From: Thermoleophilia bacterium
GTDB lineage: Bacteria; Actinomycetota; Thermoleophilia; Gaiellales; Gaiellaceae
Assembly (NCBI GenBank): GCA_025923055.1
Contig: JAICGP010000002.1
Coordinates: forward strand, 1 to 45,408
Direction of reading: 5' to 3'
DNA: 45,408 nt
Positions within the stretch are counted from its first letter, which is position 1; each line of letters opens with the position of its first letter. A program made the position numbers and the translations under genes. The notes under the pieces are model-generated. The model worked only from the letters and a program-made list of their open reading frames with translations. It made no database searches and was not told where the DNA came from. This document shows positions 11,902 through 21,313 of this stretch, in pieces.

Positions 11902-12846
11902 GTGGCGAGCCGGCTTCCCGCGTTCCTTCGTCGCCGGCGCGTCCTCGTCGGGCTGCAGCTCGCCTTCGTCGCGGTCGTGCTCGCGTTCCTCGGCTGGGCG
12001 CTGCGCGACGTCTGGAGCGACGCGCTGCCGCGGCTCCGAGACGCCGACCCGGCGGCGCTTGTCGCCGCTCTGGCCGTGCTCGCCGCCTACTACTGCCTCT
12101 TCGTCGTCGGCTGGCAGTGGATCCTGGCCGGGTTCGGGATCCGCGTCGGCTACCGGCTCGCGCTCCAGGCCGAGATGGCCTCGATGCTCGCCAAGTACGT
12201 GCCGGGCGGCGTCTGGACGCCGCTCGCGCGCATCGTGTGGCTGCGGCGGGCGGGAGGCGTCCGTGACACGTCGTTCGTCCTCAGCTCCATCCTGCTCGAG
12301 GCCGGGCTCTCGGCAGTGGCCGGCATCCTCGTCTTCGCGGGCGGCCTCGCCGCCGTGGAGGCGGTGGACGCGCCCCTGCTCCCGCTCCTCGCCTTCGGCT
12401 TCGTGGTCGGCGTCCTCCTGCACCCGCGGGTCTTCACCGCGCTGGCCCGCGCGCTCTTCCGCCGCTTCGACGCCCCCGAGCCGCCGCGGCTCCCCTATCG
12501 CGTCCTCGTCGGCCTGCTCGGCTACTACGCGTTCACCTGGCTCGTCGGCGGGACCGCGCTCTATCTGCTCCTGCGCTCGCTCGACGCCGATCCGGGCGCC
12601 GCGACGATCCCCTACCTCGGCGGCGCGGCCGCGGTGGGGGCGATCGTCGCCGTCCTGGCCGTCTTCGCGCCCTCGGGCCTGGGCGTGCGGGAGGCGTCCA
12701 TGTACGGCCTCATGGTCGTCGTCGTGCCCGCGGGGGCCGCCCTCGGCGCCACGGTCCTGAACCGCTTCGCGATCACGCTGGTCGAGGCCCTCCTGCTCGG
12801 CGGAGGCGTCCTCGGGTCGAGGCTCAGACCCTCCAGCCGTCTCTAG
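11902..12846 (+). CDS. Lysylphosphatidylglycerol synthase TM-region/UPF0104-like membrane protein
   Basis: KYVPGGVWTPLARIVWLRRAG and FAPSGLGVREASMYGLM motifs; multi-TM. Confidence 0.8.
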   Translation: MASRLPAFLRRRRVLVGLQLAFVAVVLAFLGWALRDVWSDALPRLRDADPAALVAALAVLAAYYCLFVVGWQWILAGFGIRVGYRLALQAEMASMLAKYVPGGVWTPLARIVWLRRAGGVRDTSFVLSSILLEAGLSAVAGILVFAGGLAAVEAVDAPLLPLLAFGFVVGVLLHPRVFTALARALFRRFDAPEPPRLPYRVLVGLLGYYAFTWLVGGTALYLLLRSLDADPGAATIPYLGGAAAVGAIVAVLAVFAPSGLGVREASMYGLMVVVVPAGAALGATVLNRFAITLVEALLLGGGVLGSRLRPSSRL

Positions 12847-14822
12847 CGCAACCGTATCGCCCCGAGCATGAGCCCCCGGGGCGGGTCCGCGTCGAGGAGC
12901 CTCGGGATCTCGAGCACGAGCGCGTGCCAGCGCTCGCCGTCCAGCTCCGCCTCGAGCCTCGCCGTCCCGGCCACGACCGTCTCGTCGACGCGGACCCCGT
13001 CGACCCAGAGCGCGGCCGGCGTCTCCGCGATGGCGCTCACGTCGAGCTGCACGGTGCCGGAGCCGTAAAGCCACAGGAGCCCCTGTCGCTCGCGCATCGT
13101 CCTCTCGCGCCAGCCCTCGCATAGGAACGGCTCGGCGCGCGAGGGCTCCGGCACCGGCGCCGGGGCGGCGCCGTCGCCGCGGGCCAGGAGGGTGACGCGG
13201 CCGCCCCGGGCGACGGGCGCGAAGCCGTGCTCGACGAGGCTCTGCCAGCCGAACCAGGCGCCGGGGACGTCTCCCTGCTCGTACATGCCGCGGTGGAAGA
13301 GGACGTGCTCGACACCCAGCTCGCGGAGCGTCTCCTCGTCGCCCGGCAGCCAGATCCCGCACGAGAGCCGGTTGCGCTGGAAGAAGAAGTCGAACGCCGG
13401 CTGCGGGACGAGCGTCGAGTACCCGCCCGGCCGCTCGCGCGGCGCCTGGAGCTGATAGGCGTCGTAGACGCTCCCGTGGTGGATGCCCGGCTCGAAGAGC
13501 GGCAGCTCGAGGATGCGGCCGTCCGGCTCCTCCCGCAGCGCCGCGTAGGCCTCGTTCCGTTCGTCGGCGTCGGACGCTCCCAGCGGGAACACGAGCAGGT
13601 CGGCGGCGACCAGCGCCGTGAGCACGGCGGCGGTCGCGGCCGCGCGCCGGCCCGACGCGGCCAGGAGACGGGAGATCGCGACGGCCGCCAGCGCGGCGAG
13701 CGCAAGGTTCGCGATCGGGAGAAGCCGTCCCGGCACGCGGGGATAGCGAAGCGGCGGAAAGGCGTCCCACAGCCACCCGTAGAGCGGCAGGTTCGTCCCG
13801 AGCGCGAGCACGACGGGGACGACTGCCGCCGCGCCGAGGAGGAGCGCGAGCGCGCGCGCGCCCTGCCGCCACAGCACCACGGCTCCCGCGCCCGCCAGCA
13901 CGGGGAGGAGCCAGCCGACATAGACGAACTCCTCCAGACCTCCGAGCTGCCAGCGGCTCAGGACGTCGACCCACTCGGCCGAGAACTCGCCGACCTCCTG
14001 GAGCGAGCGCCCGCCGCTCTCGGCGGAGCCGCGGACGATCGTCAGGTGGATCGCGAGCCCGACTCCCACGGAGGCGAGCAGCCCCCCGGCCGCCCACGCC
14101 GCCGCGGTCGGCGCGAAGCGCAGCGCCGCGTAGACCGCGACGAGCGGGACGACCCCTAGGGCCAGGTGCGGCTGGCCGGAGAGCGGGACCGAGACGAGCG
14201 CGGCGGCCGCGAGCGCGCCCCAGGCGTGCAGGGCGCGCGGCCGCGGGGACGACCGGGCGCGCTCGTACGCGAGCAGCGCCAGCGGCAGGAAGACAGCCAC
14301 CCAGGCGAGCAGGTGGACGCCGCTCTGGGCGAGCCGGTAGGGAGCGAGCGCGAACGCCAGGCCGCCGAGGGCGGCGGCCACGGGGGGCAGCGCCAGGGCA
14401 CGCAGCCAGCCGTAGGTGAAGGCGCCTGCCGCCACGATCGTGCCGAGGAGGAGCAGGTTCCACGCGACGACGGGCCCGAAGGCGGCCTCGAGCGGCCAGA
14501 AGAGGAGGCCGAACGGCCAGCCTGCCAGAACCGTCTGCGGCTCGACGAGCGGCTGGAAGCTGTACGGGTCGAGCCACGGCGTCGCGCCCTGCTCGAGGCG
14601 GTGCCCGACGAGCCAGAAGCGGTAGACGGCCTGGAGGTGGTCGCCCGCCGCCGGCTCGCCGTTCCCCTCGCCCCCGTCCGCGATGTAGGCGCTCCCGAAG
14701 GAGGCGATCGCAGGCAGCGTCGCGACGACCGCCGCGGCGGCGTAGAGGCCTAGGACGAGAGGGAGCGGGCCGCCGCGAGCAGCTCGTCGAAGTCCGGCAC
14801 CTGCGCGCTGTCGTAGCGCCAT
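12843..14822 (-). CDS. Large polytopic membrane protein (GT-C/YfhO-like)
   Basis: Many TM helices plus soluble C-terminal domain; N-terminus overlaps the upstream peroxiredoxin 3' end. Confidence 0.7.
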   Translation of the reverse strand: MALRQRAGAGLRRAARGGPLPLVLGLYAAAAVVATLPAIASFGSAYIADGGEGNGEPAAGDHLQAVYRFWLVGHRLEQGATPWLDPYSFQPLVEPQTVLAGWPFGLLFWPLEAAFGPVVAWNLLLLGTIVAAGAFTYGWLRALALPPVAAALGGLAFALAPYRLAQSGVHLLAWVAVFLPLALLAYERARSSPRPRALHAWGALAAAALVSVPLSGQPHLALGVVPLVAVYAALRFAPTAAAWAAGGLLASVGVGLAIHLTIVRGSAESGGRSLQEVGEFSAEWVDVLSRWQLGGLEEFVYVGWLLPVLAGAGAVVLWRQGARALALLLGAAAVVPVVLALGTNLPLYGWLWDAFPPLRYPRVPGRLLPIANLALAALAAVAISRLLAASGRRAAATAAVLTALVAADLLVFPLGASDADERNEAYAALREEPDGRILELPLFEPGIHHGSVYDAYQLQAPRERPGGYSTLVPQPAFDFFFQRNRLSCGIWLPGDEETLRELGVEHVLFHRGMYEQGDVPGAWFGWQSLVEHGFAPVARGGRVTLLARGDGAAPAPVPEPSRAEPFLCEGWRERTMRERQGLLWLYGSGTVQLDVSAIAETPAALWVDGVRVDETVVAGTARLEAELDGERWHALVLEIPRLLDADPPRGLMLGAIRLR

Positions 14823-15214
14823 GCGCCGCGGATCATGCCGTTTCGGTCGACGAGAAACGCCGAGCGCTCGGCGACGTCCGCGAGGCCGCGATACTCGTGC
14901 GCGATCCCGAACGCGTGCACGGCCTCGGCGCTCCAGTCGGAGAGAAGCGGCACGTCGAGGTCGAGCGCCTGCCCCCAGGCGATGTGCGACCAGGGGCTGT
15001 CGCGCGAGATCGCGTAGGTGCGAACGCCGGCCGCCTCGAACTCAGGTCTCCTGTCACGCAGGAGCGTCAGCTCGTCCGTTCAGGTGCTCGACCAGTCGAA
15101 GAGGTAGAAGAGGAGGAGGTACGGCGCGTCGGCGGCGAGCTCGCGAAGTCCGACCCGGTCCCGGGTGGACGTCCAGACGCGGACGTCGGGGACGGCCTCG
15201 CCCGTGCCGATCAC
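14750..15214 (-). CDS. Predicted selenocysteine-containing peroxiredoxin (AhpC/TSA family), in-frame TGA at 15082..15080 read as Sec
   Basis: ORF-track fragments ending at 15080 and starting at 14953 share one frame (729 nt between their 5' ends is divisible by 3). Joined: VIGTGEAVPDVRVW...LLLFYLFDWSST[U]TDELTLLRDRRPEFEAAGVRTYAISRDSPWSHIAWGQALDLDVPLLSDWSAEAVHAFGIAHEYRG...RSAFLVDRNGMIRGAWRYD; TGA sits at the peroxidatic Cys. Confidence 0.82.
15048..15082 (-). promoter_or_regulatory. Candidate bacterial SECIS element with UGA codon
   Basis: UGA-ACGGACGAGCUGACG-CUCCUG-CGUGA-CAGGAG: perfect 6-bp stem, 5-nt loop with G at position 2, loop 21 nt after UGA. Confidence 0.7.
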
Positions 15215-16410
15215 GCGGTTACCGTGAGCGCCGCCTCGGTGGCGTTCGAGATCTCCCGCGTCACCTCGAGGATGTCCCGGTTCGCGTTGAAGACGCGGAG
15301 CTGGCGCTCGGCGCCGCTTCCCTGGGCGAGGATCGCGCGGATGCCCTCCAGCTCCCGGTCGGACCCGAGCTCGCGCGCGTGCGGCTCGATCGCGCGGAGC
15401 GCCCGGCGGACGAGCTGCGCGACGGGGACGCGGTTGCGGCGGCCGGTGGCGAGGTCCATGACCGGCGCCTCGAGGCCGTAGCGGGCGCCGAGCCACTTGT
15501 TCTCCGTGATGAGGATGCGGTGGTAGCTCGGCAGCTCCTTGCCCGCGTCGTGGAGCTCGCAGTAGTGCTTGACGAGCCCCTGGGCGTACGCGGCGAGCGC
15601 GACCGTCTCCTCGACGTGGCTGATCGCGTCCATGACCCGGATCTCGATCGTCCCGAAGCGAGGGTGCGGCCGCACGTCCCACCAGATGTGCGTGTAGTCC
15701 GCGATGCAGCCTGTCTTCTCGAGCTGGCCGACGACCTCGGCGTAGTCGTCGTAGCCGTCGAAGCGGGGCGGCGGCCCCGAGCGCGGGAAGGCGGCGAAGA
15801 CCATCTGGCGACTCGAGGCGAGGCCGGTCGGCTCGCCGCGCCAGAACGGCGAGCTCGCCGAGAGCGCGAGCAGCTCCGGCAGGTGGACGAGGAGCGCGCT
15901 CATGACCCGGATCGCCTTGTCCGGGCCGTCGACCGCCACGTGGACGTGGCAGCCGAAGATGAGCTCCCGGCGCGCGACGTACTGCAGCTGGTCGACGAGG
16001 TTGCGGTAGCGGTCGCGCGCGGTGATGCGCTGGCGCTCGAAGAGGCTGAAGGGGTGCGTTCCCGCCGAGCCGACGCGGAGGTCATGGCTGCGCGCGGCCT
16101 GGGTCACGTGCGTCCGGAGCCGGCGCAGCTCCCGGTCGACGTCGCCCGCCGTCTTGCAGACGGGCGTCGAGATCTCGAGCACAGACTGCATCAGCTCCGG
16201 GCCGATCCGCTCGTCGAACTCCCCGTCCTGGGCCGCCGTGAGGACGGTGTCGACGTGCTGGACGAGGTCGAACGTCTGCGGGTCGAGGAGCATGTACTCC
16301 TCCTCGACGCCGAGCGTGAAGGGCGGGGAGGACCCGAAGCGGTGGTCGAGGACGCTGCCGCCCTCGGCGAAGCCCTTGCCCGTGATCGACGCCGGATAGA
16401 TCTGCTTCAT
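15211..16410 (-). CDS. Glutamate-cysteine ligase family 2 (GCS2/YbdK-like carboxylate-amine ligase)
   Basis: FTLGVEEEYMLLDPQTFDL, ELMQSVLEISTPVC, FGCHVHV, ADYTHIWWDVRPHPRFGTIEIRVMD. Confidence 0.93.
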   Translation of the reverse strand: MKQIYPASITGKGFAEGGSVLDHRFGSSPPFTLGVEEEYMLLDPQTFDLVQHVDTVLTAAQDGEFDERIGPELMQSVLEISTPVCKTAGDVDRELRRLRTHVTQAARSHDLRVGSAGTHPFSLFERQRITARDRYRNLVDQLQYVARRELIFGCHVHVAVDGPDKAIRVMSALLVHLPELLALSASSPFWRGEPTGLASSRQMVFAAFPRSGPPPRFDGYDDYAEVVGQLEKTGCIADYTHIWWDVRPHPRFGTIEIRVMDAISHVEETVALAAYAQGLVKHYCELHDAGKELPSYHRILITENKWLGARYGLEAPVMDLATGRRNRVPVAQLVRRALRAIEPHARELGSDRELEGIRAILAQGSGAERQLRVFNANRDILEVTREISNATEAALTVTA

Positions 16411-16516
16411 GGGAGCGAGAACTCTACTCCCCGCCCGGAGGGAAGAAAGAGCGCCTGGCCTCGTCATGTGACCGTACGCACAGATGGCGTCTGGCTCGAC
16501 GAAGGGAGTGGGAACA

Positions 16517-16909
16517 ATGCGGCAGAGGCGGAGGATTCGGCTCTTCCGGCGGCTCGCGGTCGGGCTCGCCGCGCTCGCGGTCGCCGTTCCGGCGGCCGGT
16601 GCGGCCCCCGACCAGCGCGGCGCCGACGGAGCGGACGGCGCGAAGGCGGCCCCGTTCGTGCAGGGAGTCACGGACTTCCCGGGCACGTCGGCGGTCCAGC
16701 CCCGCGGCGACGGCGGATCGACCGCTGGGTACCGGCGGGCGCTGCCCTCGGACTACGGCGTGGTGCCGGTGGTCCGCGTGGTCGAGCGGCCCGGCGGCTT
16801 CGACTGGGGCGACGCGCTCGCGGGCGCGGGCGTGGCTCTCGGCCTGGCCCTCCTGGCGGCCGGGGCGGTCCGCGCGACCGGGCGGCTGACCAGGCCCGCG
16901 GCGGCCTGA
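16517..16909 (+). CDS. Hypothetical secreted/membrane protein
   Basis: Signal-peptide-like N-terminus (MRQRRRIRLFRRLAVGLAALAVAVPAAGAA) and C-terminal TM. Confidence 0.65.
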   Translation: MRQRRRIRLFRRLAVGLAALAVAVPAAGAAPDQRGADGADGAKAAPFVQGVTDFPGTSAVQPRGDGGSTAGYRRALPSDYGVVPVVRVVERPGGFDWGDALAGAGVALGLALLAAGAVRATGRLTRPAAA

Positions 16910-20992: not shown

Positions 20993-21313
20993 CTAGGCCT
21001 CGACGAGGCCCAGCGACCGCTCGAGCATCCGCTTCGGCTGCGCGCCGATCGCGGCGGCTGCGGGCTCTCCGCCCTTGAAGAGGACGATTGTGGGGATCGA
21101 GAGGATCCCGTAGCGCTGCGCAAGCTCGGGCTCCTCGTCGATGTTCACCTTGACGAGGCGGACCTCGTCCGCGCGCTCATCGGCGATCTGCTCGAGTACG
21201 GGGGATACGGCCCGGCAGGGGCCACACCACTCCGCCCAGAAGTCGACGATCACCGGGGTCTCGCTCTGGAGGACCTCCGAGTCGAACTCGGAGGTCGTGA
21301 TTGCGTTTGCCAT
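20993..21313 (-). CDS. trxA: Thioredoxin
   Basis: VIVDFWAEWCGPCRAVSPVLEQIA, IPTIVLFKGGE. Confidence 0.97.
   Translation of the reverse strand: MANAITTSEFDSEVLQSETPVIVDFWAEWCGPCRAVSPVLEQIADERADEVRLVKVNIDEEPELAQRYGILSIPTIVLFKGGEPAAAAIGAQPKRMLERSLGLVEA

Follow-up and report, generated by a model that had tools for sequence, protein, structure and literature searches.

A putative selenocysteine peroxiredoxin with a leucine-variant active-site motif in mostly uncultured actinobacteria

In the 45,408-nucleotide window discussed here (the whole stretch of DNA that was analysed), a minus-strand frame runs from a GTG start at 15214 to a TAG stop at 14752-14750, and its sole interruption is a TGA at 15082-15080. 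Read as selenocysteine (Sec), this codon (15080..15082, minus strand) would be residue 45, at the peroxidatic position, of a 154-residue peroxiredoxin (14750..15214, minus strand); the same position carries TGA in 56 distinct orthologs and TGC or TGT in 5. An ORF caller splits the gene at the TGA into two minus-strand pieces (14750..14953 and 15080..15682), which the first-pass annotation had joined as one frame with TGA read as U, encoding a continuous AhpC/TSA-family protein with the TGA exactly at the peroxidatic Cys. The peptide it quoted was reproduced from the GTG at 15214 to the TAG ending at 14750, the Pfam AhpC-TSA match (PF00578; residues 5-129, 81 bits, cut-off 26) runs across the TGA, and the joined translations align to Cys homologs whose Cys falls exactly at this codon. 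Of piece 15080..15682, the peroxiredoxin accounts only for the part that begins at 15214, while the 5' stretch lies inside the gene at 15211-16686, which uses another frame. That gene (15211..16686, minus strand) encodes a GCS2/YbdK-family carboxylate-amine (glutamate-cysteine-type) ligase (PF04107, 1.4e-57; NCBIfam PRK13515 above its cut-off), and its TGA stop (15213-15211) overlaps the peroxiredoxin GTG start as GTGA. The ligase is immediately upstream in 22 of the 61 orthologs, many fetched loci being short and the others not thereby ligase-free. Downstream lies a membrane-protein ORF (12843..14822, minus strand; no Pfam or NCBIfam family), which follows the peroxiredoxin in 29 fetched loci (again, many loci are short and the rest are not thereby without it); since its first ATG (14822) is inside the peroxiredoxin, its true start is probably later. 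A thioredoxin gene (PF00085; window 20993-21313), a possible reductant, is found about 6 kb from the peroxiredoxin.

The first-pass annotation had also seen a standard peroxiredoxin motif around the TGA, and here the catalytic position stood but the motif as a whole did not: the T/SxxU part of PxxxT/SxxC(U) is present, with Ser42 (15089..15091, minus strand) as its T/S residue (Ser in 52/61 orthologs, Thr in 9/61), but the Pro at -7 is Leu38 (15101..15103, minus strand; placed by alignment to PDB 2cx3), and Leu occupies this site of the canonical PxxxTxxC in 61/61 orthologs. Arg117 (14864..14866, minus strand) matches the conserved peroxiredoxin active-site Arg, being invariant in alignment A2 and aligned with an Arg of 2cx3. 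The protein has no Cys anywhere else and so no resolving Cys; in total, 45 of the 56 Sec forms are of this kind. An AlphaFold model (pLDDT 93.6) gives TM scores of 0.93 to Bcp4, 0.86-0.89 to AhpE entries and 0.80-0.93 to peroxiredoxins overall, and the predicted fold matches 1-Cys peroxiredoxins such as AhpE. Peroxidase activity is suggested by this modelled fold and by the residues retained, and the missing canonical Pro makes it less certain than Sec insertion. One could therefore imagine a Sec protein with a peroxiredoxin fold whose main activity is a different one, such as that of a reductase for other thiol or selenium substrates. Such a role is favoured by the Leu in every ortholog and by the GCS2-family ligase context; however, the T/SxxU motif and active-site Arg are kept and the closest structural matches are peroxiredoxins, and I consider such a role unlikely.

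Turning from the protein to the means of decoding it, the source genome, a draft of 353 contigs, was searched for Sec genes, whose absence the first-pass annotation would have taken as a refutation, and selA, selB, tRNA-Sec and selD were all found. The first three (517, 370 and 67 bits, respectively) sit in one cluster on contig C112 and each exceeds its curated cut-off, ARAGORN reports a tRNA-SeC with anticodon TCA, and selD is present as two pieces on two contigs. In addition, the formate dehydrogenase alpha gene fdhA (L132, G000 C63:7530-9548) contains a single in-frame TGA, located at the customary Sec motif SCEATUHAPT, so the peroxiredoxin is not the sole Sec gene of this genome. Among the 48 genomes with a Sec peroxiredoxin, 10 (drafts, 71-91% complete) had neither a convincing selA nor a convincing tRNA-Sec, and selB did not exceed its cut-off in them; for some of these 10, other members of their genera do have Sec genes. 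Although a suppressor tRNA alone would in principle suffice to place Trp or some other standard amino acid at the UGA, or the codon might have been reassigned, such readings are very improbable given that the complete Sec machinery with a true tRNA-Sec is present, that UGA swaps only with Cys codons at the catalytic residue, and that UGA still terminates other genes, including the neighbouring ligase at 15213-15211.

Sec decoding is also the reading to which the relatives of the gene point. At a threshold of at least 44% identity, all fetched loci together held 56 distinct genes of the Sec form and 5 of the Cys form; 48 of the 101 genomes examined have a TGA ortholog and 4 other genomes have a Cys-codon ortholog. 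When 399 genomes of the class were sampled, every match of at least 44% identity came from a single order, and within it from two families, the named relatives being mostly uncultured Actinomycetota and Thermoleophilia with one Gaiellaceae candidate, and this order is probably Gaiellales; plasmid records held only distant relatives, at or below about 36% identity among the matches listed. The TGA is kept in orthologs down to about 45% identity, nearly all without further disruption, and the part of the gene past the TGA is under purifying selection (dN 0.12, dS 0.56 against the nearest relative). Consequently, the view that translation really ends at the TGA and that the peroxiredoxin is a decayed pseudogene, which the first-pass annotation had argued against and which the splitting of the gene by a standard ORF caller would seem to favour, was rejected on the conservation of the TGA among orthologs, and it is hardly credible when the downstream sequence is constrained and the hairpin codons described below are frozen only in TGA forms. 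Although the genome behind the window is a draft, a sequencing or assembly error turning TGC or TGT into TGA, the other refuting outcome named at first pass, was rejected on the same conservation and carries a negligible probability: dozens of genomes, assembled independently and belonging to different genera, have TGA at the same codon.

The search for a SECIS element, likewise suggested at first pass, returned a SECIS-like hairpin after the UGA. This putative bacterial SECIS hairpin, CUCCUG-CGUGA-CAGGAG (15048..15064, minus strand), begins 15 nt past the UGA, where the Sec genes read CTC CTG CGT GAC AGG and then mostly AGN. Published rules for bacterial SECIS elements describe an apical loop of 3-9 nt, an upper stem of 4-16 bp, a G within the first two nucleotides of the loop, a UGA-to-loop distance of 16-37 nt and a minimum free energy of -7.5 or below (PMC13188914). 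The hairpin falls within every one of them: its 5-nt loop (CGUGA) has G as the second nucleotide, its stem is 6 bp long, the apical loop is 21 nt from the UGA and the energy is -8.7 kcal/mol. The Arg codons within it are CGT in 53/56 and AGG in 55/56 Sec genes, as opposed to 4.3% and 3.6% elsewhere in the same genes; the Cys genes use CGC or CGG at those Arg codons in 5/5. Binomial probabilities for this codon freezing (about 1e-68 for CGT and 1e-78 for AGG) ignore relatedness, and because shared ancestry is left out of them, the number of independent hairpin losses weighs more. In the tree, Cys forms are nested inside the Sec clade at three separate places and the hairpin is lost in each, with the caveat on this count that one of the three Cys lineages (L117, G070 C105) may be a decaying copy: its frame has a TAA close to the start and may begin later or be decaying, and a Sec copy (L112) is present in the same genome. 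The main Cys clade (L049, L051, L068) carries a second Cys at +26 from the catalytic Cys (ISCDSPW), where Sec forms mostly have Arg; in that one clade it may be a resolving Cys acquired as Sec gave way to Cys.

Furthermore, pair 18-36 of the hairpin, in which both partners are third codon positions, covaries (G-C 34, C-G 5; C18 always with G36, Fisher p 3e-5), with a covariation score of 0.106, whereas shuffled alignments average 0.052 and 0/500 shuffles score as high. When the 43-nt RNA of this gene is folded from the UGA onward as a single sequence, another structure is preferred, and the SECIS hairpin becomes the minimum-energy fold once the UGA, which would sit inside the ribosome, is omitted; the z-scores obtained by folding single sequences are modest, averaging -1.6. 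The case is carried by comparative evidence, the single-sequence fold of the UGA region not being convincing. An Rfam search gave no SECIS match near the peroxiredoxin gene, and the UGA-plus-hairpin pattern was found in only 3 of 397 genomes across the phylum, all in the same peroxiredoxin family, so that at that stringency the element did not turn up outside the clade.

Now considering that one conserved protein extends across the TGA, that TGA and Cys codons exchange, that the hairpin is kept only in TGA forms and that the machinery is present, I conclude with high confidence that the locus encodes one AhpE-like single-domain peroxiredoxin whose peroxidatic Sec would be inserted at the UGA via SelB and the hairpin, an insertion for which comparison of sequences argues strongly. 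The model for a hairpin recruiting SelB and Sec-tRNA to a UGA is Escherichia coli SelB. By analogy, SelB carrying Sec-tRNA(Sec) would bind the mRNA hairpin just 3' of the UGA and Sec would go in at the UGA in place of termination, after which the selenolate would attack peroxide and be converted to selenenic acid. As the protein has no resolving Cys, the selenenic acid would have to be reduced by an outside thiol, which could be of low molecular weight or belong to a protein of the thioredoxin or mycoredoxin type; a search for the mycothiol ligase gene mshC, as a clue to the reductant, scored 245 bits where the cut-off is 485, and another contig carried a second small piece. It is a guess that the product of the ligase is tied to the reduction of the enzyme. 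The broader proposal, of an unrecognised order-wide selenoprotein subfamily that has an LxxxS/TxxU motif, lacks a resolving residue and relies on a small thiol, produced with the aid of the overlapping GCS2-family ligase, to restore its selenenic acid, is a tentative one that I hold possible but doubtful; if true, the peroxiredoxin and the ligase would form a two-gene selenium-dependent peroxide-defence unit.

Sec-containing peroxiredoxins are already known, as the selenoprotein Prx family (PF00578, TxxU) described by Zhang et al. (2006; PMC1794560) and covered in a 2026 review (PMC13188914). The orthologs here share with that family the AhpC/TSA domain, the peroxidatic Sec, the T/SxxU motif and an in-frame UGA followed by a bacterial SECIS, but unlike its PxxxTxxU they have Leu for Pro in every member and Ser more commonly than Thr at -3, and they form their own clade in Gaiellales-type genomes. 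By sequence they are a distinct subfamily, with LxxxS/TxxU for PxxxTxxU and usually without a resolving Cys. Thioredoxin-dependent PrxU (NCBIfam NF040737) belongs to the same superfamily and has Sec-containing members; however, its cut-off is not reached (33 bits versus 270) and its model has 233 positions versus the 154 residues here. AhpE of Mycobacterium tuberculosis (PDB 1xxu, 4x0x) is likewise a single domain of equal length (TM about 0.88, about 32% identity) that keeps the active-site Arg, but it carries Cys where the protein here carries Sec, and its motif has the canonical Pro. The best PDB matches by structure (Bcp4 of Sulfolobus, 3hjp) and by sequence (PrxQ of Aeropyrum, 2cx3) are archaeal proteins without Sec, at about 30% identity. 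None of the NCBIfam models reaches its cut-off on the Sec peroxiredoxin, and no description of a Leu-motif Sec peroxiredoxin was found in the open-access literature on selenoproteins together with Gaiella, Gaiellales or Thermoleophilia; novelty is thus judged against NCBIfam cut-offs and open-access literature rather than all annotated proteins.

On these observations, actinobacteria of soil and sediment, most of them uncultured, would gain a subfamily of selenium-dependent peroxiredoxins, whose genes standard annotation would split in two. The three Sec-to-Cys changes, with the hairpin lost each time, offer a clean natural experiment on SECIS retention, and the frozen rare codons point to an easy way of looking for further selenoproteins overlooked in high-GC genomes. 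Other Sec branches were also encountered. A more distant second one (L118 and L119, in genomes G004 and G034) reads FDFTGSxEGGU, with a five-residue insertion before Sec and a downstream RNA fold that differs from the CUCCUG-CGUGA-CAGGAG hairpin, and it has a Cys relative, L122, reading KGQGCEAQVC. A third Sec peroxiredoxin (L120 and L121, in genomes G099 and G089), from another family of the same class, keeps the canonical motif, as PLDWTPVU, and may form a different hairpin, CAGCAGCAGCUG.
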